NCBI RefSeq assembly: GCF_006265175.1
Contig: NZ_VDCQ01000024.1
Location: forward strand, 1 to 64,000
Reading direction: 5' to 3'
DNA from: Paenibacillus hemerocallicola
Lineage (GTDB): Bacteria > Bacillota > Bacilli > Paenibacillales > NBRC-103111
Length of the DNA stretch: 64,000 nt
In this document: positions 1,699 through 49,782 of the stretch, one piece after another
How the letters are laid out: each line of letters starts with the position of its first letter
Numbering within the stretch: position 1 is the stretch's first letter
The notes under the pieces: generated by a model
The model's input: only the letters and a program-made list of their open reading frames with translations
Database searches by the model: none
What the model was told of the DNA's origin: nothing
Made by a program: the position numbers and the translations under genes

Positions 1699-4599
1699 TC
1701 ATTGTTTCATTTTATAACTTCTCGGAGTGTCTCCCCAATATTTGCGAAATGTTCTCGAGAAGTAAGCGGCATCGGGAAACCCATTTAATGCGGCGACCTC
1801 CTGTATTTTCATGCCCGACTCCAGCATAGACTTGGAGCGCGTCATCCGAATTTGCAATATGTAGTCGGAAAATGTGAGGCCCGTTTCTTTTTTAAACATT
1901 CGACTGAGATAAGACGGATGCATGTATAGACGTTTCCCAATTTCATCGAGAGATAGTTTCTCGGCGAGTTCCTGTTCGATGATTTCCAAAATCTGTTGAA
2001 TAGCATCACGCTTTACTCGTTTCCGAGCATGCTGCTTATATCTCACGATATGCTCCGCGTATTGTTTAAGCAGCGAGTACCCTTCTTCCTCCGTTGCGAT
2101 TTTATTGAGATGAAACGCTTTGTTTAAATCATGTCCGAATACTTGGTTTAACGGCCACCCTATACGCTCGGCATGACCGATCATGCTTGAACATCCTTGC
2201 AACAGCTGCACTCTCCACATTTCTTGCGCTCCGTTCCCCTGCGATTGAAGGGTATGCATCTCCCACCACTTTTGCAATGCTTCAAGAATACGTCCAATAT
2301 CTCCCGTATGTAGTAAAGCTTGAAACGGGTTGTCTAAGCCGGACTTCTCTGAATGGTCAGGCTGAATCTCTGCAGCTGCTTTCACTCTGGGGGAATGCGG
2401 AAGCGTCAACTCGATCCAAACGGTTTGTTGCGATCCGGTAACATCGTCCACATTCAGTTCCAATATTCCAGCCGTCTCGTTATAATCCCATTCGTTTACG
2501 GGATGAGGATTGTCTGCTGCTTGTGATGACCGGCCGCAACGAATCTGAATAGGTTCTCTATCTATCCAAATATGCAGCGCATAGCTGCGCTTCGTTGGCA
2601 TATTTGGATAATCGCCGCACATGCAGCCGATTTGAACGATAACGGTATCCCGTTCCGAACGACAGCTAATCGTGGTGACCGCGACTTTCTGGTGTTGATA
2701 TTGCGATGTAAGGCCGTCATCTTCGTACAATGCAAATTCGCTGGAATGGGATGGATAAATGTGCAAGGTTAATCGTTCCGGAGCGGATGAACGAATATGA
2801 TCGAATGGTGGCCACATCGGAATGATCGCTCCTTGACGAACAAAAAGCGCTCCCCCGGCGTCCTCCGGCGCCGAATAGTGGATAAGCTTGGGCCCGGTAT
2901 ACGTATTCCCCGTCCAGTAATCGATCCATGTGCCATCCGGTAAATAGACTCTTTTATCATAAGCGGCAACCAACAAAAAATCGCCCAGCATATATTGCTG
3001 CGCGAGATCGTCACAATTGGGGTCGTATGGAAACATTAAAGGCATCGCCCTAAGCATCGGCATGCCCGTGTAAAGGGCGGCGTGCGCCGTCGAATATAAA
3101 TAAGGAATGAGCCGGTAACGGAGATGCGCATATTTTTTGAATACTTGCGATAAGGGCTCGTCCAAATAGGCGGGATGTGAAAAATACGCCCAGCTGTTAA
3201 TCAGCGACCAAGCAGTTAAAAAGCCGGCATGAATGCCTTCTCGGGACATAACATCCATACTGCTGGTCGTATGCATATGACCCGATAGTCCGAGATTCAA
3301 CATCGCCGCTATACCCTCCTGACGCTGAATCCCTTTCCCTGTTATACAGGTAGCGGCAAACCGCTGAATTCCGGTATACCCGATTGTGGAATAAATAAAT
3401 AACCGTTCCCCTTTTTGACGATGAAACCCGGCCTGCATTTGCTTGTACAAAATGACCGGGTACACGTTATGCATCTCCTCATCGCTCATTCCGTCGCCCC
3501 ATATATGACCCGGGTGCCCGTTGATTTGCCAGGCTGCCGAAACAGCAAAGGAGGAGGCTCCTTCGTCAACAAATTGTTCCAGATGGGCATACCAAGGCTC
3601 TACGTTGCCGCGACGATCGATAACGTCCGTCTCCGACGACAAATGTTCATGCAAGGTCACATCGTAGTTGCAGTACAAATTTAAGTTCAACTTAAAGCCG
3701 TACCGTTGCAATGTTCCAATAAACGTATGCGGACTTTTAATGTTATTGGCAGGGATATGAAACCGATCCTTGTTCCACTTTCTCGTTATTGAAAAATCCA
3801 TTTTGTTTTGCGTCCAGCCGCTTAAACCGATCACATCACAAGGAATCCCCGCTTCGCGAAATTGTCTGGCATCCTTGACCACATCGTTGGCATTGGAATT
3901 TTCATGGCATATATAGGTAAGCCCGTACGCCCAGATCGGAAGCAGCATAGGTTTGCCTGCAAGTTCGGCATACGCTTGAAGCAATTGCTTGTACCCGGAA
4001 CCGGTAAAAAGAAAAACGTCCAGCGGACCTTCGCTTCCTTCAATGTTTAATTCATTGGACCGCGTATATCCGAGATCGAACGTATGGCGATAGGTTGAAT
4101 TGATGAGGAGCGCCCAGCCTCGACTGCTCATCAGAAAAGGAATCGGGACAAACGCCGAATAATTTTTTAGATGCATCTCGATAACTTGTCCGCGCCGCTG
4201 AAGATGCTCGCGGGAAACATCGCCTAATCCATATAATTTTTCCTCATCGGCAAGGGAGAAATGAATGCCGAATCCACCGTGTTCTTCGGATCGCGGGGAC
4301 CTGCTCGTGCTTAACGCCCGATCTTGCGTCCCAAAGCCCCAACGGAATTGTCCGTTCAAGCGACTAACCTCAAGTAAAGCGTTTTCAAGATACACCAATA
4401 AGGTTTGATCGGTAAATTCGGTTTCAAACGCAATGGGATCCGTTTTTTGAATAATGCCGAAACGAATCGTTGCAGGGTCTTTAAAGGAGCCATGTTCGTC
4501 CATTTGCAGCCGGACGGCGTGCGGGGAAAGCGGGGAAAGCTTCATCCAATTGCCGTTACCGAGTTGAAATTGTACAGGACGGCTCAATCGATCAGTCAT
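1699..4599 (-). CDS. GH31-fold / AraC-HTH fusion regulator with lost catalytic residues
   Basis: About 966 residues from ATG 4599, which follows GGGGGATC; the frame stays open to another ATG at 4632. Residues 1 to about 760 match the GH31 alpha-glucosidase fold (YGLGD, LPIWAYGLTY, SLINSWAYFSHP, FALYEDDG). The last 100 residues are a complete AraC double helix-turn-helix (LSLDEIGKRLYMHPSYLSRMFKKETG, then FRKYWGDTPRSYK). Aligned with the GH31 at 47347-49782, the nucleophile Asp (AFKLDGA) is Ser here (SFAVSAA, codon 3538-3540). The acid/base motif WAGD reads CITG (Gly at 3337-3339). Loss of both carboxylates predicts no hydrolase activity. It has no signal peptide and lies divergent from the 4737-8507 genes. 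My inference is a cytoplasmic sugar-sensing transcription factor using the glycosidase fold as sensor. Confidence 0.88.
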   Translation of the reverse strand: MTDRLSRPVQFQLGNGNWMKLSPLSPHAVRLQMDEHGSFKDPATIRFGIIQKTDPIAFETEFTDQTLLVYLENALLEVSRLNGQFRWGFGTQDRALSTSRSPRSEEHGGFGIHFSLADEEKLYGLGDVSREHLQRRGQVIEMHLKNYSAFVPIPFLMSSRGWALLINSTYRHTFDLGYTRSNELNIEGSEGPLDVFLFTGSGYKQLLQAYAELAGKPMLLPIWAYGLTYICHENSNANDVVKDARQFREAGIPCDVIGLSGWTQNKMDFSITRKWNKDRFHIPANNIKSPHTFIGTLQRYGFKLNLNLYCNYDVTLHEHLSSETDVIDRRGNVEPWYAHLEQFVDEGASSFAVSAAWQINGHPGHIWGDGMSDEEMHNVYPVILYKQMQAGFHRQKGERLFIYSTIGYTGIQRFAATCITGKGIQRQEGIAAMLNLGLSGHMHTTSSMDVMSREGIHAGFLTAWSLINSWAYFSHPAYLDEPLSQVFKKYAHLRYRLIPYLYSTAHAALYTGMPMLRAMPLMFPYDPNCDDLAQQYMLGDFLLVAAYDKRVYLPDGTWIDYWTGNTYTGPKLIHYSAPEDAGGALFVRQGAIIPMWPPFDHIRSSAPERLTLHIYPSHSSEFALYEDDGLTSQYQHQKVAVTTISCRSERDTVIVQIGCMCGDYPNMPTKRSYALHIWIDREPIQIRCGRSSQAADNPHPVNEWDYNETAGILELNVDDVTGSQQTVWIELTLPHSPRVKAAAEIQPDHSEKSGLDNPFQALLHTGDIGRILEALQKWWEMHTLQSQGNGAQEMWRVQLLQGCSSMIGHAERIGWPLNQVFGHDLNKAFHLNKIATEEEGYSLLKQYAEHIVRYKQHARKRVKRDAIQQILEIIEQELAEKLSLDEIGKRLYMHPSYLSRMFKKETGLTFSDYILQIRMTRSKSMLESGMKIQEVAALNGFPDAAYFSRTFRKYWGDTPRSYKMKQ

Positions 4600-4736
4600 A
4601 GGGATCCCCCATAAAAAGTAATCATAATCCAAGTTTTAAGTTTTTATAATCATATATTGTGTCATTAACGCTATCTAAACATTATTTTATGAAATGATAT
4701 ACTGATTCTCAAGCAGGAAATCTTAAACAAAATGAT

Positions 4737-6431
4737 ATGAGGAGCGTGAACGCAATATTCAATCGACACATGAACAGACGACAGTTAATCCGGACCGCGG
4801 GGATAGCCGGTTTGGCATTCATCGGCGGAAATATGATCCCTCCGCAAGTAAAAGCCGATCATAACCCGCAGCATGAAGGACCGTCACATGGAAAAGGCCG
4901 CCCTGAAAAATCCAGCCCCTTTATGACCAATACGCCGGACGATTGGATCAATGTCCAGAATTATGGAGCAACGGGGGACGGAGCGACAGACGACTCCGCC
5001 GCCATCCAATCTGCCATTAATGCGGCACCTGGGCAATCGGCCGTTTACTTTCCTCAGGGCACGTATGTAATTAGTACGCCGCTGCAGTGGTCGGGCAAAG
5101 CGCTGCATCTATTCGCATTCGGTTCGGCCGTCATAAAAGAAAGCCAGGTGCTGGGTGTCCCGATGATTCAACTTACCCAAGCAGACGGCTCCACGATCCA
5201 AGGATTAGACTGCAGCGGGGCAGAAACGTATGAACTCTTTTCAGGGGCGTCCGGAATTGAAAACGCATTCATATCAGTCGATGATTCTGAATGCGTAACG
5301 ATTTCCGACTGTGTCGTCGAAAACAAATCGTACGGTTTTCTCCTCAAAAACAGCAAGTGGTGCAAAGTGCAAGACGCTCAAGTATTCGGATTCCTTCATA
5401 CAACAAAAAGCGGGCACAACTATAGCTCCTGTTGTCACATTTCCCGTGGTTCCGCCCACATCATTCAAGGATTGACAGGTGCAAACATGGGTTCGGGTGT
5501 ACTCGTCGGCAGAGAATCTACACTCAATCAAATTCATAATTGCCAATTTGAAAACATGCAGGATAACGGAGTTTATCTGTCTTCCGGAGCCGGCAACTCG
5601 GTAATCGGGGTAACGGTTCTCCAAACGCCAGGCAGCGGTGTGAAGGCTCGCGGGACGCGCAATCTCATTCTCGGCTGTCACGTGAAAGATGCTCAGGTCG
5701 GGTACAGCTTGACCGGCAACGGAGTTGTTCCCGATTCTTACGGGGCGAATGGTTACGGAACGATTTTGGAAGGATCCACAGCGGAAAATTGCTTAAGAGA
5801 CGGTGTTTCGATCGGCAAACAAGACAATTATTATGCGCGGCATTTTAAAGTGATCGGCAACGTGCTGGTGAACTGTGCGATTGAACAAGGGGGCTACGGA
5901 GCCGTTCGGGGCGGCGGTCATTATCATGAAATCGCTCATAATACAATTGTCGGTTCAAGTGGAACCTACGCCGTCATTATGGCCGGAAGCGCAGCCGAAT
6001 CGATTCGGGGATTGTGCATAAGAGACAATACCATTATGGAGGCGAATGAAGGCATCCGTGTCCATTACGCTTCAGGCGCGGACATTTCAAGGAACCAGCT
6101 CTGTTCATTATCTTCCAACGGCATTCATCTTCGTTACGTTTTCGACAGTCAAGTGACCGATAATCAGTCCCATGAGCAAGTAGGCGGGGCCGGAATTACA
6201 GCAACCCAGCAATATGGGAATACAGGGAACACGTTCCGAAGTAATAGGGGAACGACTCTCTCGCTCGACGTCAATCGCAATTACGTGTTCGAAAACATTC
6301 CTGCAGCTGTAAATCTTTCAGCTGATGCTGCGTTGCCGCCTTTTTTTGTCGGGCAAATGTGTTTAAGTGCAGGAACTGTATATATCGCTACGGGAACCTC
6401 CTCTCCTGCGGATTGGAAGCCAATGACTTAG
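4737..6431 (+). CDS. pectate-lyase-fold (right-handed beta-helix) protein, Tat signal
   Basis: 564 residues. A twin-arginine signal ([20 protein letters not shown]) is followed by the N-terminal cap motif [20 protein letters not shown] of the pectate lyase superfamily and then about 350 residues of beta-helix repeats rich in N, G and V. The protein is probably exported folded and acts on plant-type or bacterial polysaccharide; the substrate cannot be told from sequence. The first ATG is used; an in-frame ATG at 4770 starts exactly at the Tat motif and is an alternative. It heads a likely operon with the SGNH hydrolase and the solute-binding protein, and is divergent from the GH31-AraC regulator. 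Confidence 0.85.
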
Positions 6432-6458
6432 ATTCATTCCTGCGAATTTGAAGGGAGC

Positions 6459-7178
6459 ATGAGCATGATCCGGATGACGGTTTCTGAAAGATTACTTGAA
6501 CGTATGAAAGAAGCGGACCAAGATCCAAAGCGCATTGTAGCTTTCGGCTCCAGCAATACCGCACTAACATGGGGCAGCAACGGTATGCATAATTGGGTCT
6601 CGTGGTTCGGCATCAACATACGTGAAACGATCGGCAGACATATCGCTATCGTGAATCAGGGGATTAATGGAGACACAACAGAGCATTTGATACAGCGGAT
6701 GGAGCGGGACGTCCTCTCCTTATCCCCGAAAATATGTATGATTACGATTGGCGCCAACGATGCCGCCAGACGATTTGAACCACAGCAATACAAAAACAAT
6801 ATGGTGCACATTTGCGAGCGAATGAGAGATCATCACATTATTCCCGTTATTCAAACGTACTACTATCCGCTCTACGAATCGGGGCCTAACGGATTTAAAC
6901 AATTGTTTGAAGATTTTATGGAATTGAACCGAGAAATAGGTCGAGAGATGGATATACCGATTATCGATCAGTATCGTTACTTTGAACGGCTTTATGTTCA
7001 GGATCAGACCGTTTATTCGCACATTATGCGCGACTGGATTCATCTCAACCCTATCGGACAAGCGCTAATGGGCGAGATTGCTTCTCGCGCATTCGGTCTT
7101 CCCTCACTGCGAATTCCGGATTCGATGAGAGAAACGTTTGACAACATGCTGCTCCACATGAGGGTCGCCGACGATTAG
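6459..7178 (+). CDS. SGNH/GDSL-family hydrolase
   Basis: 239 residues, no signal peptide. The GDSL-type blocks are visible: FGSSNT near residue 30 (nucleophile Ser32), the Gly block GINGD, the GxND block IGANDA and the C-terminal DWIHLNP with the Asp and His of the triad. Members of the family are esterases, often deacetylating sugars or polysaccharides. The position between a beta-helix protein and a sugar-binding protein fits a carbohydrate esterase acting on imported oligosaccharide (inferred). It starts 27 bases after the upstream stop and is preceded by GGGAG. Confidence 0.85.
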   Translation: MSMIRMTVSERLLERMKEADQDPKRIVAFGSSNTALTWGSNGMHNWVSWFGINIRETIGRHIAIVNQGINGDTTEHLIQRMERDVLSLSPKICMITIGANDAARRFEPQQYKNNMVHICERMRDHHIIPVIQTYYYPLYESGPNGFKQLFEDFMELNREIGREMDIPIIDQYRYFERLYVQDQTVYSHIMRDWIHLNPIGQALMGEIASRAFGLPSLRIPDSMRETFDNMLLHMRVADD

Positions 7179-7193
7179 GACGGAGGTTGCAAA

Positions 7194-8507
7194 ATGGCTA
7201 AACATATATACCGCCCCGTATGCGGCTTCATCATCGGTTGTTCTGCTCTGCTGTCTGCCTGCGGCGGCGATTCTGGCGGTGAAGCCGCTCCCGCCAAAGA
7301 AGATGAAGCTCCAAAATCACCGATTACGATGGTCATTCACGGGGCAGGCGTTACGATGGAAGAGCTGGAAAGCCGATATCGGGACCATCTTGTCAAAAAG
7401 TTTCCTCATATTACATTTACATTTTTGCGAAACGATAAAGGGAATATGATGGAAGACTTGGTTGCACAAGGAACGATCCCCGACATCGTACGCCCGGACA
7501 CGAATAATGTTTACAGCTCTTATTTGGACCTTGGTTTGGGTGAAGATTTGACCCCCTATGTTAAAAAGTACAGGTATGACCTCTCGCGATTTAATAAGGT
7601 GTTTGTTGATGAAATCGTCGATGCTGCAAGAACGGGAGAGCTGTATGGACTGCCGCAGCCTCCATTCTTCCCGCATGCGTTGTACTACAACAAAGATTTA
7701 TTCGATCAATTTGGCGTTCCTTATCCGAAAGACGGGATGACTTGGGATGAAGTGTACGAAATAGCGAAGCGAATGACTCGGACCAACAATAACAAGCTAT
7801 ATCGCGGATTCAGTTTTAACCCCGTAAGCGGTCTCCGCGATAATCCATACCATCTCCCGATTCTGGATCTAGCGGCAGACCGACTTGCAAATACAGAACA
7901 ATGGGCGTCATTGTTTCAAAACTTTCTACGCTTCTACCAAATCCCGAACAATACCATTGCTGCATCAACTTCGGCCGAAAACGGAATGTTCGCGAAAGGG
8001 AGCGTAGCCTTGATGGCAAACCAGCATAACGTATATTTAAATATTCCGCCTGAAGTGGACTGGGATATCGTTACGTATCCGACTTACGCGGGAGGACAAA
8101 AATTAATGCCTCAACGCGGTCCTGCATACTGGTCGATTACTAAGCAAAGTAAACACAAAGATGAAGCGTTTCAGGTCATTATGGAGATGTTATCGGATGA
8201 AGTGCAGCTCGAAGATTCTCGCAGAGGAATTCCGTCAACGCTCGTAAACCCACAAATTCAACAAGTATTAGGTCAAGGCTCACCGGTATTCAGCACCAAA
8301 AACATGGCGGCCCTGTATCAATACCCGCCTGCCCCCTACACGCCAAAACGAAAAGCCGAATTACCGAATGTTCCGCAAAACATTCAACAAAATTTGCTTG
8401 GCGCCGCTTTTATGGAAGCAGCCAAAGGAGCGAAGGATGTAAATACGGCACTACGGGAATTGAACGAAATGCTTCGTTTGGAAGTCAATAAAGTGAAGAA
8501 CCAATAG
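7194..8507 (+). CDS. ABC transporter extracellular solute-binding lipoprotein (family 1)
   Basis: 437 residues with a lipoprotein signal (LLSAC, the Cys being the lipidation site) and the fold of CUT1 sugar-binding proteins. It carries YNKDLFDQFGVPYPKDGMTW, a segment nearly identical in the three other binding proteins of this window (30830, 45421, 54872). The ATG is preceded by GGAGG, 15 bases after the SGNH hydrolase stop, so it is in the same operon. No permease or ATPase gene adjoins it. It should bind a sugar or oligosaccharide outside the membrane and either share permeases encoded elsewhere or act in sensing. Confidence 0.9.
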   Translation: MAKHIYRPVCGFIIGCSALLSACGGDSGGEAAPAKEDEAPKSPITMVIHGAGVTMEELESRYRDHLVKKFPHITFTFLRNDKGNMMEDLVAQGTIPDIVRPDTNNVYSSYLDLGLGEDLTPYVKKYRYDLSRFNKVFVDEIVDAARTGELYGLPQPPFFPHALYYNKDLFDQFGVPYPKDGMTWDEVYEIAKRMTRTNNNKLYRGFSFNPVSGLRDNPYHLPILDLAADRLANTEQWASLFQNFLRFYQIPNNTIAASTSAENGMFAKGSVALMANQHNVYLNIPPEVDWDIVTYPTYAGGQKLMPQRGPAYWSITKQSKHKDEAFQVIMEMLSDEVQLEDSRRGIPSTLVNPQIQQVLGQGSPVFSTKNMAALYQYPPAPYTPKRKAELPNVPQNIQQNLLGAAFMEAAKGAKDVNTALRELNEMLRLEVNKVKNQ

Positions 8508-8759: not shown

Positions 8760-11213
8760 TCAACGGGAACGGGCGGCGCCGCGGATGTCTTCGAAGTGTC
8801 GCATGACCGCTTTGCGGCCTTTCAGTCCAAGCTTGCCGTAGATGTTTTTACAATGGGTTTTGACCGTCTCCAGCCGGATCGCGAGTTTGTCGGCAATATC
8901 GTTGTTCGAACGGCCTTCGATGAGCAACTGCAGGATGGCGTATTCCTTGTTCGTCAGTCTGGCGCGGACGAAACGGTCTTTGTCGGTGGACAGCCAGCGT
9001 TCGTCGCGAAGCTGTTGCAGCCTGCGACAAAAAGCGACGCTCTCCCCCGAGCCAGGCGTGCTGTGCAGCCGCAGTTTTTTCGTCAGCGCGCCAACCAGCG
9101 GCTCCGCCTTGTCCCACTCCTCCAGATACAGCTGCACGTAACCTTCCTTGCTGCCCGTTTCCAGCGATTTTTCCAGCTTGCGCACAGCCGTGCCGTTGTC
9201 ACCGCCATCCGCGTGCAGCAGCGCCAGCAGCAAGTTGATTTCCGCCACGTAATAATGCAGATTCCGCGCCTCGGCATAATACGCCAGCCGTTCCCCGAAC
9301 GCCAGTCCTTCGCGAGTCCTGCCCAGACAAATGTATGCGCGCAGCAAGACGATATATTCGTACAGCCAAGTGATATCGGGCACCGCGCCCGTATCTTGCC
9401 GCTGCTCCTTCAGCCACTTCCGAACCGCGGCCGTTTGGCCCGTCTTGATATGCACCAGCGCCTGGCAGGCTTCCAGCACGGCATCCGTATCAACGCTTGC
9501 CCGAGCGGCGATCTGCAGCCGGATTTCCTCCAGCATGGCGCGCGCAGCCTGCGTTTCTCCCGTGGCCAGGCGGAGCTGAACGAGCGTCAACGCGGCGGGA
9601 AGGACGATACCGGTATCGAGCAAGTCAAGTCCGATAAAGAGGCCGCGCTGCAAAGAGCGTTCGGCTTCTTCGAGTTGTCCGCGCAAGTAATAACATTCGC
9701 CAAGGATCGTTTGGATGATGCCGTATCCCTGGTTGCTGCCGCCCCAGAGCGGTTCGGCATAGCCGTAAATCGCCAAAGCTTGGTCGATCGCGCCCCAGAA
9801 TCCGGCGTTGCTTCTTAGCAACGAGCTGCCGGCCGGTTCGATGGCGTTGAAATGTGTGTACAGCCGCCCCGGACCCAGCAGCAGAGCGGCGGCTTCGTGC
9901 ATCAGCGCGATCCCGCGCTCCGAGTCAAGGCGCATCAGCGCAATGCGCGAGCGGATCGTAGCGAAATAACCGCGCAAATTTTCGCCCGTCGGACCAAACG
10001 AGTAGAACTCGTCGGTCATCAGCGCCTCAGCCAAGTCAATCACCTTCTCCGCCGCCGAAATGCGGTGATCGTTGATGAGCAGGAAGGCGTGCAGCAGTGC
10101 GAGCGACGGACGGCGCACGACTTCCTGCGTTGGGAATTGATCAAGCAACTCCAGCAAGCGGCCGCACGGCTGCGCCAGCGTAATTTCGATATCGCCGAGC
10201 AGCAACCCGGCTGCGCGTTCCATGTCCGGTGTCCGCAGCGCATGCCACACCGCTTCGACCAGCATGCCGCGCTCCTCGGCCCAACGGCTGACAAGCGCGT
10301 GGATCGTCGCCGGTGCGCGTTCGTCCGATTCGTACAGCCGGTTCCGCAGCCAGGCGGCAAACAGCGGAACGTAACGAAAACGTCCACCCTCGCCGCGGGT
10401 GAGCAGCAAATTGGTCGCCAGCAGCCGTTCGAGAGTCTCTTGACAGTCCGGGTCTTCGGTGACCAGACGGGCCAGAGCGGTATCGAAAAAGTCGGGCACC
10501 GACGTGAACAGCATAAACGGCAAAGTCTCCGGCGGTTGTTCCAGGAACACGTTGTCCAGCAGGATACCGTACATCTCCACGGGCAGTGCTTCAAGCGCTG
10601 CCCGTTCGTGCAGCGGTTCGGCCCGGTTCTCTTTGAGCAGCGCGGCATAATGCATGACAGCGAGCGGCCAGCCGTCGGTCAGCGCATACAGCCGTTTGGC
10701 CGGTCCGGCGGCCAGTTCGCGTCCGGTTTCGCGGCGTATGGCTTGCGTCATTTCGCCGGAGTTCATTTTCAGATGCTCGCATGTCAGCATATATGGGCCG
10801 GGGTGACGGCTGCGCAGACGGTGATAGAAAGGCAGCTTGACCCGGCTTGCGATATAAAATTGCACGCGCTCGCCGGCGTCTTCGATCAACTGCTCGAGCG
10901 CGCGGTGGAAGCTGTCCTCGTGAATCGCCTCGTAACGGTCTACGAAAATATGTACGTCGCTTGTCGTGCCGGCGATTGCATCGGCGATTTGTGCGAGGAA
11001 ACGATCGTTCTTGTTGTTTTCCGGACCAAGCGACAGCCACAGCACGGTGTTTTCCCCGGACAGGGTATCCGCCAATGCGCGCAGCAGCATCGTTTTGCCG
11101 TAGCCGGTCGGTGCAGTGACCGCAATGAGCGGCCGCCCCGCTTCGCGTCTCAGCACCGCAAGCGGCCGGGCAAGATGAGCGGCTGTCGGCGGAGGATTGA
11201 TGGAATCAGTCAC
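8760..11213 (-). CDS. LuxR-family transcriptional regulator, MalT-like with ATPase domain
   Basis: 817 residues from GTG 11211-11213, chosen because AGGAGG sits 7 bases upstream; the frame extends further but without such a site. Walker A TAPTGYGKT is at residues 33-41. The middle is a long helical TPR-like region and the end is a LuxR helix-turn-helix (LTNKEYAILQLLIEGRSNNDIADKL, then TVKTHCKNIYGKL). This is the layout of MalT-type LAL activators, which bind ATP and a ligand before activating transcription. It is divergent from the lanthipeptide genes and is the obvious candidate to control them. The codons are G+C-rich like the island. The long open frames on the opposite strand are shadows. 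Confidence 0.9.
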   Translation of the reverse strand: MTDSINPPPTAAHLARPLAVLRREAGRPLIAVTAPTGYGKTMLLRALADTLSGENTVLWLSLGPENNKNDRFLAQIADAIAGTTSDVHIFVDRYEAIHEDSFHRALEQLIEDAGERVQFYIASRVKLPFYHRLRSRHPGPYMLTCEHLKMNSGEMTQAIRRETGRELAAGPAKRLYALTDGWPLAVMHYAALLKENRAEPLHERAALEALPVEMYGILLDNVFLEQPPETLPFMLFTSVPDFFDTALARLVTEDPDCQETLERLLATNLLLTRGEGGRFRYVPLFAAWLRNRLYESDERAPATIHALVSRWAEERGMLVEAVWHALRTPDMERAAGLLLGDIEITLAQPCGRLLELLDQFPTQEVVRRPSLALLHAFLLINDHRISAAEKVIDLAEALMTDEFYSFGPTGENLRGYFATIRSRIALMRLDSERGIALMHEAAALLLGPGRLYTHFNAIEPAGSSLLRSNAGFWGAIDQALAIYGYAEPLWGGSNQGYGIIQTILGECYYLRGQLEEAERSLQRGLFIGLDLLDTGIVLPAALTLVQLRLATGETQAARAMLEEIRLQIAARASVDTDAVLEACQALVHIKTGQTAAVRKWLKEQRQDTGAVPDITWLYEYIVLLRAYICLGRTREGLAFGERLAYYAEARNLHYYVAEINLLLALLHADGGDNGTAVRKLEKSLETGSKEGYVQLYLEEWDKAEPLVGALTKKLRLHSTPGSGESVAFCRRLQQLRDERWLSTDKDRFVRARLTNKEYAILQLLIEGRSNNDIADKLAIRLETVKTHCKNIYGKLGLKGRKAVMRHFEDIRGAARSR

Positions 11214-11287
11214 CGGATTACCTCCTGACGAATCGGTATGTTGCCATTTTCTGTTTTCTATCAGCAACAGTATAACCGAAAGTGGAG

Positions 11288-11355
11288 CAAAAGAGGTAGT
11301 GTTTTGTCGAAAAAGAGGGATGGGTGGAATGACGATGAATTTCGAAAAGAGGGAT
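11288..11355 (+). promoter_or_regulatory. direct repeats in the regulator-precursor intergenic region (candidate operators)
   Basis: TCGAAAAAGAGGGAT (11307-11321) and TCGAAAAGAGGGAT (11342-11355) are near-identical and 35 bases apart. A weaker third, CAAAAGAGGTAG, lies at 11288-11299. They sit between the MalT-like regulator and the first precursor, where activator sites are expected. That the regulator binds them is inference. Confidence 0.45.
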
Positions 11356-11430
11356 ATGCGGTCAGATAAAGCCAAGATATACTGGAATCACGCTAAGCAA
11401 AAAATGTAAATCGTATCGGAGGGATCAATG

Positions 11431-46891: not shown

Positions 46892-47248
46892 TCAGACTTT
46901 GTACACGCCGGGTGAAACGCCCCAATATTTTCGGAACACTTTAGCCAAGTAGCTGGAATCCTCAAAGCCGAGCGCTTTTGCTACATCGTTCACCTTGAAT
47001 CCTTGCTGCAGCATATTTTTGGCATGTTCCATTCTGCGCATCATGACGTGATCGGAAAACGTTTTACCAGTTTCCTTGCGGATCAGGCGACTCAGGTGGG
47101 ACGGGCTGACATGAAGCCGTTCCGCGATGTCTTGCAAATTGATCTGGTCCTCCAGTTCCCGCTCGATCAAGTCGAACGTTTGACGGACGAGCGGGTGAAG
47201 CCCTGTCTGCCTTTCCAGGATCATCTGCTCGGTTATGCGATCCATCAT
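46892..47248 (-). CDS. AraC-type DNA-binding domain protein without sensor domain
   Basis: 118 residues: only a double helix-turn-helix (INLQDIAERLHVSPSHLSRLIRKETGKTFSDH, then LGFEDSSYLAKVFRKYWGVSPGVYK) plus a 30-residue lead. It closely resembles the C-terminal domain of the GH31-AraC fusion at 1699 (shared ETG-TFSDH/Y and FRKYWG). The frame stays open upstream for about 75 bases with coding-like sequence (LDTVQSVRELLRG) but no ATG, GTG or TTG, so the N-terminus may be lost. Divergent from the GH31 gene at 47347. It could be a functional minimal regulator or a truncated gene. Confidence 0.75.
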   Translation of the reverse strand: MMDRITEQMILERQTGLHPLVRQTFDLIERELEDQINLQDIAERLHVSPSHLSRLIRKETGKTFSDHVMMRRMEHAKNMLQQGFKVNDVAKALGFEDSSYLAKVFRKYWGVSPGVYKV

Positions 47249-47346
47249 GCCGCGAAGAAGTTCGCGGACTGATTGTACCGTATCGAGGTTCCGCGGACAA
47301 GTTCCGGTTTGCAGCTGACTTATCGATCAACCTCCCGTTTGCAATC

Positions 47347-49782
47347 TTGATCTGTATCGGCGCTCCGCTTTCGCCGGGATCGGTCAGGCAAAGCGACATG
47401 GTTCCTTCCATCCGATCGTATCGCCAGCCTTTGTCGATTAACGAGGACGGACCGGACCGTTTTTTCGGAAGCTCGGCGCACGTGAACGACCGCCCGGATT
47501 CGGTTGAACCGATGGACCGGGACGGGGCGTACAGCGTCGAAGAGACGGACGCCGCGATGACCGTACGAACAGAGCGCGCTTCGCTGCGGATCGACCTGAC
47601 GGACGGGAGTCTCGTGCTGCTGGACCGGCGGGGACAGGTGTTGACGCGCCATGCGAGATCGCCCTGGGCGGACAAGCGAAAAGGCTTCGGAGCCGAACTT
47701 GCGCTGGCCGAGCAAGAGCGCTTTTACGGGCTGGGCGACGAGTCGCGGGAGCGGCTGCAGAAGCGGGGACACCGTTCCGGCATGTGGGTGGCCAATGTAA
47801 AGCGTTATGCCCCGATCCCGTTTGTGATGAGCAGCGGCGGGTGGGGGCTGCTGATCAATACGACATGGCGGCATTGGATCGATATCGGCCAAACGGCGGC
47901 GGATCGTCTGCGTTTTTGGGGACGCGAAGGGGAACTGGATTATTTTCTGTTTGCCGGCGACAGCTTGGCCGACTTGCTGCACAGCTACACCGACATAGCC
48001 GGCAAGCCGCAGCTGCTGCCGATATGGGCCTACGGCCTGACCTTCGTCTGCAACCAGCAAGCGAACGCCCGGGAGATGATCGACGATGCGCTGAACATGA
48101 GGCGGGAAGGTATTCCGTGCGACACGATCGGCCTGGAACCCGGGTGGATGGAACAGTTTTACGACTTTACGACGAGCAAAAGTTGGCACCCGGAACGATT
48201 TTTCATTCCGAGGCATATGCAGGACGGCGGCCCCGCCACCTTCTTCGGCCCGCTGGAGCGGATGGGCTTCAAGCTCAGCTTGTGGTTATGCTGCGATTAC
48301 GATGTTAGCTGGGAGGAAGAGCGCGCCTGCATACGCGCGGCGGAACTTGCCGGCGGGGAAGGCGGAGCGGGAACGGGAGCGAATTTCGCTCAACCAGATG
48401 CAGCTGCGGATGGCATGGCCAGTCGTGACGCGGACGATTACGAGCAGGACGTGGAACTCCAATACCCCGTATATCTGGATACCGTTACAAAACAGGACGA
48501 GCCCTGGTACGAGCACCTTAACCGTTTCGTTCGGCAGGGGGTGTCCGCCTTCAAGCTCGACGGGGCGAGGCAGGTGCTCGATCATCCCGACCGACGCTGG
48601 GGCAACGGCATGACGGACGAGGAGATGCACAACCTGTATCCGCTTTTGCTGGCCAAGCAAATGCACAACGGCTTTCGCGAGCAGACGGGCAGGCGGCCGA
48701 TGATTTATACGGCAAGCGGATTTACCGGCATCCAGCAGTTCGCGGCCACTTGGGCCGGCGACACCGGCGGCGGACCCAAACCGCTTGTGTCTCTGCTGAA
48801 CCATGGCTTATCGGGACATGTCAACACGAGCTGCGACATGGACGTATTTTCGCCGGCCGGCATCCATTTCGGCTTCCTGCAGCCCTGGTCTCAGGTCAAC
48901 AGCTGGGCGTACTGGCGTCATCCGTGGCTGCTTGGAAAAGAACTGCTTGACACGTTCAAAATGTACGCCAAGATGCGATACCGCCTGCTTCCCTACATTT
49001 ACAGCGCGGCACATGTCGCGGCCCGTACCGGCATGCCGATCATCCGGGCGATGCCGCTGGCATTCCCCGACGATCCGCGTTCGGACGACCTGCTGAACCA
49101 ATACCTGTTCGGAGATTCCTTGCTTGTTGCGGCGTTCACTAACGAGGTGCATATACCGGAAGGAGAATGGATCGATTATTGGACCCGGGAAACATACACC
49201 GGTCCTTGCGAGGTGACATGTTCAATTCCTCCGCATGCGGGAGGACCGTTGTTCGTTCGCGCCGGTTCTATAATCCCTCTATGGCCGGACATGGATTACG
49301 TAGGGGAGAAGCTGGTGGAACGTCTGGAGCTCCACGTGTATCCGCGCGGCGTCTGCGAGTTTACGCTGTACGAGGACGACGGGGCTACTTTTCGCTACGA
49401 AAGCGGCGAAGTAGTGGAAACGAAAATGGTCTGTACCGCAACGAAGGAGCATATCGCCGTTGAACTCGGGCCCCGAAAAGGGAATTATGATGGCATGGTC
49501 GGGAATCGAAGCTACGATCTAGTCCTGTATATGGAAAATAAGCCGTCTCAAGTCTTGCTAAATGGTGCAGCATTGACGGAAGCCGATTCCAGTCAGCAGG
49601 ATGCGGGAGAATCCCCGGACTTGTCGGCAAACTCCTGCTTTGCGGTTTGGCCAGAGTCAGGTTCCCTATTCGTCGAAACGGTCCGGGACAAGTGGACGTA
49701 TGACCGTAAGCGGGGATTAGTACGTCTTCATGTCGAGGAGGACAGACTGAAGCCTGCATTGGGCATTGAACTACTATGTTGA
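47347..49782 (+). CDS. GH31 alpha-glucosidase-type glycoside hydrolase
   Basis: 811 residues from TTG 47347; the frame is open further upstream without ATG and no good ribosome site is seen, so the start is uncertain. N-terminal sandwich (RFYGLGDESRERLQKRG), then the GH31 barrel with nucleophile Asp405 in AFKLDGA and acid/base Asp472 in AATWAGDTGGG, and the C-terminal FTLYEDDGATFRYESGE. No signal peptide. It should release alpha-linked glucose, xylose or galactose from imported oligosaccharides. An insertion (AELAGGEGGAGTGANFAQPD, about 340-365) is absent from the fusion paralogue at 1699. Confidence 0.9.
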   Translation: MICIGAPLSPGSVRQSDMVPSIRSYRQPLSINEDGPDRFFGSSAHVNDRPDSVEPMDRDGAYSVEETDAAMTVRTERASLRIDLTDGSLVLLDRRGQVLTRHARSPWADKRKGFGAELALAEQERFYGLGDESRERLQKRGHRSGMWVANVKRYAPIPFVMSSGGWGLLINTTWRHWIDIGQTAADRLRFWGREGELDYFLFAGDSLADLLHSYTDIAGKPQLLPIWAYGLTFVCNQQANAREMIDDALNMRREGIPCDTIGLEPGWMEQFYDFTTSKSWHPERFFIPRHMQDGGPATFFGPLERMGFKLSLWLCCDYDVSWEEERACIRAAELAGGEGGAGTGANFAQPDAAADGMASRDADDYEQDVELQYPVYLDTVTKQDEPWYEHLNRFVRQGVSAFKLDGARQVLDHPDRRWGNGMTDEEMHNLYPLLLAKQMHNGFREQTGRRPMIYTASGFTGIQQFAATWAGDTGGGPKPLVSLLNHGLSGHVNTSCDMDVFSPAGIHFGFLQPWSQVNSWAYWRHPWLLGKELLDTFKMYAKMRYRLLPYIYSAAHVAARTGMPIIRAMPLAFPDDPRSDDLLNQYLFGDSLLVAAFTNEVHIPEGEWIDYWTRETYTGPCEVTCSIPPHAGGPLFVRAGSIIPLWPDMDYVGEKLVERLELHVYPRGVCEFTLYEDDGATFRYESGEVVETKMVCTATKEHIAVELGPRKGNYDGMVGNRSYDLVLYMENKPSQVLLNGAALTEADSSQQDAGESPDLSANSCFAVWPESGSLFVETVRDKWTYDRKRGLVRLHVEEDRLKPALGIELLC

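Follow-up and report, generated by a model that had tools for sequence, protein, structure and literature searches.

Catalytically dead GH31 domains fused to AraC DNA-binding domains in a family of putative one-component regulators from Paenibacillus and its relatives

Results

A GH31 fold and an AraC domain share one reading frame

The window, by which we mean the whole stretch of DNA analysed, comprises 64,000 nucleotides of the Paenibacillus hemerocallicola genome. The gene of interest lies on the - strand, divergent from a short operon, and was assigned together with its neighbours as follows.

1699-4599, - strand: pseudo-GH31/AraC regulator gene, 966 aa (open frame and Pfam domains)
4075-4545, - strand: Gal_mutarotas_2, the GH31 N-terminal beta-sandwich, residues 19-175 (Pfam)
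3091-3951, - strand: GH31 TIM-barrel without the catalytic Asp pair, residues 217-503 (Pfam, alignment, structure overlay)
3538-3540, - strand: Ser codon in the nucleophile column, residue 354 (alignments)
3313-3345, - strand: rewritten acid/base loop, residues 419-429 (alignments; model confidence low at 414-436)
2821-3066, - strand: GH31 third domain, residues 512-593 (Pfam)
2575-2772, - strand: DUF5110, residues 610-675 (Pfam)
2014-2337, - strand: helical segment, residues 755-862, homologous to the pre-HTH segment of REC-AraC response regulators (model and homology)
1711-1980, - strand: AraC double helix-turn-helix, residues 874-963 (Pfam)
4600-4736, no strand: divergent intergenic region, presumed promoter/operator (position; conserved blocks upstream of related regulators)
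4737-6431, + strand: divergent gene for a beta-helix/pectate-lyase-like protein with a twin-arginine-like leader by eye (frame, Pfam)
6459-7178, + strand: next gene, GDSL esterase/lipase (Pfam)
7194-8507, + strand: next gene, ABC solute-binding protein SBP_bac_1 (Pfam)

The reading frame runs uninterrupted from the ATG at 4599 to the stop at 1699 on the - strand, with GGGGGA immediately 5' of the ATG; an alternative upstream TTG start would give a protein of 977 aa. The initial annotation described a dead GH31 joined to an AraC DNA-binding domain in one frame, and this description stands: all 966 codons are intact and all four GH31 domains are present, every Pfam domain called on the protein exceeding its cut-off. 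The C-terminus carries the two HTH motifs of the AraC family, with an HTH_18 match at residues 889-963 (E 1.1e-20), HTH_AraC matches to two stretches and model helices at 865-964. Pfam gave no match to a Response_reg (receiver) domain in the protein, and no membrane-like stretch was found in its hydropathy profile (maximum 1.28 over 19 residues). The placement of the gene divergent from a polysaccharide-type operon (beta-helix, GDSL esterase and solute-binding genes) was likewise as first described.

An AF2 model of the protein (mean pLDDT 78.7, pTM 0.71) was built from a 15-row alignment. Residues 5-733 superpose on solved GH31 enzymes (Foldseek E 1.2e-50), and the nearest solved fold is the dextranase FjDex31A (PDB 6jr6/6jr8), with 6jr8 giving the best superposition (Z 32.5, 2.7 Å over 681 residues). 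Residues 758-858 are largely helical and the HTH helices lie within 865-964. Confidence is low at, among others, 319-334, 357-364, 406-411 and 414-436, the latter pair around the acid/base loop, and in linkers such as 695-701 and 736-755. Prediction of the pocket, which the initial annotation had called for, thus recovered the GH31 fold with a model unsure around the old active site.

The fusions are confined to Paenibacillus and its family in the samples searched

The genome that contains the window (9.65 Mb, 167 contigs) encodes 11 intact fusions. In total we collected 49 fusions, defined as ORFs of at least 700 aa, from seven related genomes: 11, 14, 11 and 10 in four genomes of the genus, and one each in three genomes of the family outside the genus. 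Since the architecture of the window protein is common to 48 further intact fusions, its fusion is no chance event. Four of five genomes of the genus matched, each with 10-14 intact copies. Matches were obtained in 8 of 104 genomes of the family (those four included, and one with a truncated copy only) and in 7 of 392 sampled genomes of the order; in the class and phylum samples (398 genomes each, E up to 1e-100) the sole match was the window's own genome. In the samples searched, the fusions are therefore confined to Paenibacillus and its family. At most two candidates per genome were scored in the order, class and phylum searches and about eight in the family search, so that, with genomes sampled, copies may have been missed or undercounted, and GH31-AraC fusions may possibly have arisen separately elsewhere. 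At least 4 of 88 carried the HTH, and one more fusion end, in L088, runs beyond the edge of its stretch. Among the best 80 matches listed, the named fusion-bearing relatives are Paenibacillus oceani, P. mesophilus and Paenibacillus sp. 32352. Thirteen plasmid records gave matches, all below 60% identity (25.5-26.2% for the ten listed) and each over less than 80% of the protein.

Sequences shorter than 700 aa were left out of the counts: a 5'-truncated fusion (L050), a broken copy (L084) and fragments in L070 and L078. The two broken copies lie at 9660-11426 (+) in L050 and 8877-10910 (-) in L084; one joins part of the barrel straight to the HTH, and one is without the 5' half. Seven distant GH31 rows (L098, L101, L102, L104, two of L105, and L110) were also excluded; in the alignment, L101 carries Ser at the nucleophile position, and both Asp residues are present in the remaining six. 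Counts of GH31 genes in such Paenibacillus genomes include at least 10 proteins that are probably not enzymes.

Loss of the catalytic Asp pair tracks with the fusion

Alignments with unfused relatives place Ser354 of the window protein in the nucleophile column and Lys422, within the rewritten loop, in the acid/base column. Both catalytic Asp residues are gone, as the initial annotation held, and neither alignment puts an Asp back. In a live relative, the nucleophile column aligns with the Asp at position 414 of the listed FjDex31A chain, which we take to be D412 of the 6jr8 title, assuming an offset in numbering. The first comparison had been made with the unfused GH31 at 47347, which does keep both Asp residues; its 5' end looks damaged, and undamaged enzymes agree with it.

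The suggestion that the loss tracks with the fusion is borne out by the family. In one alignment, both catalytic Asp residues are present together in none of the 49 fusions and in every one of the 19 unfused close relatives, of which 10 belong to the genus and family and 9 to other phyla (Armatimonadota, Verrucomicrobiota, Kiritimatiellota, Planctomycetota and two uncultured). Neither Asp is present in 45 fusions. The nucleophile Asp is absent in 47 (retained only by L042 and L058), and the acid/base column lacks Asp in 47 (Asp in L063 and L081, that of L063 being doubtful because of an insertion alongside).

Of 183 sites near-invariant in the enzymes, 137 are conserved in the window protein; the mean for the fusions is 76%. 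In L055 enzyme numbering, Asp390 is kept in 2 of the 49 fusions, Asp457 in 2, Thr458 in 0, Pro464 in 4 and Trp512 in 0. Twenty-two enzyme-invariant sites are retained in fewer than 35% of the fusions; seven of these are the two Asp residues and the acid/base loop, and the other 15 lie elsewhere, so the losses are not confined to catalysis. The best-kept part of the GH31 is enzyme positions 511-690, where 0.84-1.00 of the near-invariant sites are retained. The catalytic residues have been lost, and on the retained fold we expect the fusions to hold, rather than cut, a sugar that they would bind.

The dead GH31 occupies the place of a receiver half

Trees were built from the GH31 half only, with the catalytic motifs omitted; L085, L087, L088 and L089, repeats of loci already included, were left out. 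The GH31 halves of the fusions form one clade in a quick tree (69 rows; SH-aLRT 98), in which the outgroup was L065, an unfused GH31 that is distant, retains both Asp residues and stands outside the 19. A careful tree (45 rows) gave bootstrap/SH-aLRT support of 99/96 for the clade and a single origin in 99% of 200 bootstrap trees. In the careful tree, rooted on distant phyla that fall not quite on one side of a branch, the fusions are nested among unfused Paenibacillus enzymes (99/92); the quick tree leaves this deep order open.

The C-terminal ~210 residues, including the helical segment, share up to 49.5% identity with three REC-AraC response regulators of the same genome. The best match of residues 731-963 of the window protein is the L167 regulator (34% identity, E 1e-36), and a histidine kinase gene adjoins the L168 response regulator. 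We call these regulators with a receiver and an AraC domain YesN-type, a name that PDB 3lsg also carries. All three homologues have the receiver domain that the fusions, the window protein among them, are without. Because both halves are homologous to known proteins and the homologues of the output half carry a receiver, the dead enzyme stands where a receiver had been. The data support a dead enzyme that took the receiver's place in a response regulator, possibly by replacement in a single step.

Between close fused orthologues, dN/dS of the GH31 part is 0.12-0.42 and mostly ~0.2 (26 comparisons, covering fusions that have close orthologues, which the window gene does not); two enzyme pairs gave 0.13 and 0.18. 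The dead GH31 domain is thus under purifying selection between close orthologues in the lineages compared.

Pocket columns are kept in regulators that share a locus with an enzyme

Ten fusions share their stretch with an unfused GH31 of the group, at distances from adjacent to ~7 kb; in one such pair (L078) the enzyme gene is fragmentary. The other 39 have no GH31 enzyme in the stretch, which is typically ~20 kb and in a few cases shortened by contig ends. Across the nine complete pairs, enzyme and regulator distances at the same locus are correlated (Mantel r 0.84, reached in 8 of 20,000 permutations), and with two close pairs removed r is 0.65 (177 of 20,000).

We compared non-catalytic columns that, from their position beside the catalytic residues and from the GH31 subsite residues in the part of PMC9061262 that lists them, we infer to line the sugar pocket. 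All ten enzyme-paired fusions conserve W307, K388, W454 and N503, and nine conserve E258 (the tenth has Asp). Among the remaining 39, N503 is conserved in 35, K388 and W454 in 17 each, E258 in 14 (two others have Asp) and W307 in 5. None of the 49 keeps W512. When pocket retention and the presence of an enzyme in the locus were compared free of descent, only 4 independent pairs were available and the sign test was not significant. These patterns fit paired regulators that would sense the enzyme's own sugar and other regulators with re-tuned pockets, with descent as a confounder.

At E258, W307, K388, W454, N503 and W512 the window protein has Ser, Asn, Ala, Cys, Asn and Ala. The initial annotation proposed an alpha-glycoside as its ligand, bound where the active site had been; with one of the six non-catalytic pocket columns kept (N503), this part of the proposal found no support. 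Nor does the neighbouring operon (beta-helix, GDSL esterase, solute-binding) name a substrate that would point to an alpha-glycoside signal.

The unfused enzymes L086 and L090-L097 belong to a GH31 group common to several other phyla. Judged from motif positions, in this group Asn seems to replace the usual pocket His, and Glu the usual pocket Asp.

Neighbourhoods and upstream regions

In 36 of the 49 fusions, the gene immediately upstream is divergent. One of the two nearest upstream genes belongs to the solute-binding cluster in 26 of 49 fusions, vs 101 of 538 other genes in the same stretches (p 4e-7); against other AraC genes (10 of 29) the same measure is not significant (p 0.16). Other neighbours of the fusions, sampled with Pfam, include GFO/IDH oxidoreductases, beta-helix proteins, one heparinase II/III-like protein, one DUF4838 protein and an FAD oxidoreductase. 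Permease genes seem to be absent near the solute-binding genes, an unvalidated motif being seen in 1 of the 49 stretches (L037-L084 and the window), which hints at permeases shared from elsewhere. Downstream of one set (L039, L053, L066) lie sporulation-type genes (Spo0A-like, SpoIVB-like) instead of sugar genes, unexpected for a sugar regulator.

Alignment of the regions upstream of eight regulator sets gave conserved blocks within the closer sets and one block common to two of them, the L038 set (L038, L052, L054) and the L041 set (L041, L060, L071). Blocks such as AAGTATAGA, kept within and between these two sets, are a candidate operator. Nothing firm emerged from the eight alignments as an operator of the window gene.

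Third-codon G+C is 0.47-0.51 in the window regulator, beta-helix and solute-binding genes (1699-8507) and 0.65-0.75 in the ten other fusions of the same genome, a contrast that suggests that the window regulator and its operon came together from elsewhere. Beside the regulator we noted, by eye, a degenerate serine-recombinase-like stretch at 1255-1600 and, at 1-942, a broken gene with a twin-arginine-like leader, similar to the beta-helix neighbour.

Elsewhere in the window lie the enzyme used for the first comparison and a gene remnant divergent from it:

46892-47326, - strand: C-terminal remnant of another fused regulator, ~123 matched aa (divergent from the 47347 gene)
47347-49782, + strand: unfused GH31 with both catalytic Asp residues, 5' end looks damaged (Pfam, alignment)

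The first ~55 residues of the 47347 gene are unlike those of its relatives in this frame. By their look, the two form a decayed enzyme-regulator pair.

Discussion

Proposed function and alternatives

The one-component regulator put forward in the initial annotation is still the best reading of the gene, with ligand and DNA binding predicted from its sequence. We consider it probable that the window protein is a cytoplasmic one-component transcription regulator that originated when a GH31 took the place of a receiver. A GH31 enzyme gene would have been duplicated in an ancestor of this Paenibacillus lineage, and one copy would have replaced the receiver half of a YesN-type response regulator, of which the helical segment and AraC domain were kept; the homology of both halves and the tree of the GH31 half support this step. 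Loss of the catalytic residues would leave a bound sugar held and uncut. A ligand in the old pocket may shift how the GH31 body packs against the helical segment, and so alter the binding of DNA, or activation, by the HTH domains. Where a copy lies in one locus with a GH31 enzyme, it probably senses the substrate or product of that enzyme; copies with altered pockets, the window's included, probably sense other imported oligosaccharides. The window regulator would control the divergent operon at 4737-8507 and perhaps also itself.

The dead GH31 could instead be a scaffold that dimerises the protein or docks a partner, such as the enzyme of the locus, which would supply the signal. The last part of the GH31 is indeed the best retained (0.84-1.00 at enzyme positions 511-690), and same-locus regulators and enzymes diverge together; but 39 of the 49 fusions have no GH31 enzyme in the stretch, and the enzyme-paired regulators keep their pocket columns yet lose the catalytic ones, so that we regard a scaffold as rather unlikely. 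Far less probable is a functionless product of decay or chance. Broken copies are known (L050, L084, window 46892-47326), but the window gene itself is intact, as are the 49 fusions of one clade, whose GH31 parts show dN/dS of 0.12-0.42 where comparable, and on these grounds we rejected a relic. We also rejected a bifunctional enzyme-regulator that still cuts its substrate, the least probable of these alternatives: the nucleophile Asp survives in two fusions and an acid/base-column Asp in two others, but no fusion has both, and T458 and W512 are gone from all 49.

For the family as a whole, we give an even chance to a class of pseudoglycosidase sensors that arose once, when a duplicated and inactivated enzyme was joined to a two-component output module, and that spread to at least 10 regulators per genome, each either matched to a live sister enzyme with the same pocket and sugar or re-tuned to a new sugar, with enzyme and sensor co-evolving. 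If such a class exists, it would offer a natural series for the passage from enzyme to sensor, with one origin, live sister enzymes at some of the same loci and dozens of dead descendants whose pockets are kept or changed, and an example of a two-component output module converted to a one-component switch. For a paired regulator, the enzyme at the locus would allow a guess at the ligand; this would make the sensor reading directly testable, and sugar-responsive regulators would be on offer as tools.

Comparison with known systems

A literature search of open-licence PubMed Central articles turned up no description of a GH31-AraC fusion, and a word search of PMC11238990 gave no match. That a transcription regulator can have a sensor derived from an enzyme is a known idea; we did not find the present fold, partner and radiation described. 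In the DNA-binding ROK repressors (NagC, Mlc) the sensor likewise has the fold of a sugar enzyme; unlike the fusions, they have a kinase fold and a different DNA-binding domain.

The window protein resembles GH31 glycosidases such as FjDex31A in having all four GH31 domains, but is without the Asp pair, has a rewritten acid/base loop and carries an extra regulatory C-terminus of ~230 residues. To YesN-type response regulators, including three of the same genome, the fusions are homologous over the last ~210 residues; unlike them, they carry a dead GH31 in place of the receiver half, and no phosphotransfer is therefore expected.

Predicted links between glycosyl hydrolases and transcription factors also occur in ECF52/ECF53 sigma factors, which have predicted glycosyl hydrolase domains and for which the relevant passage of a review calls experimental validation missing (PMC10766802); unlike the fusions, these are sigma factors. 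The nearest published idea that we found is RsgI6 of Clostridium thermocellum, an anti-sigma factor with a polysaccharide-binding GH10 module of very low activity, as described in an excerpt of PMC4711584. Like the fusions, RsgI6 has a glycoside hydrolase module that serves the control of gene expression; its module, by the same excerpt, is extracellular and belongs to a membrane anti-sigma factor, whereas the GH31 of the window protein is without a membrane segment and is fused to its own DNA-binding domain.
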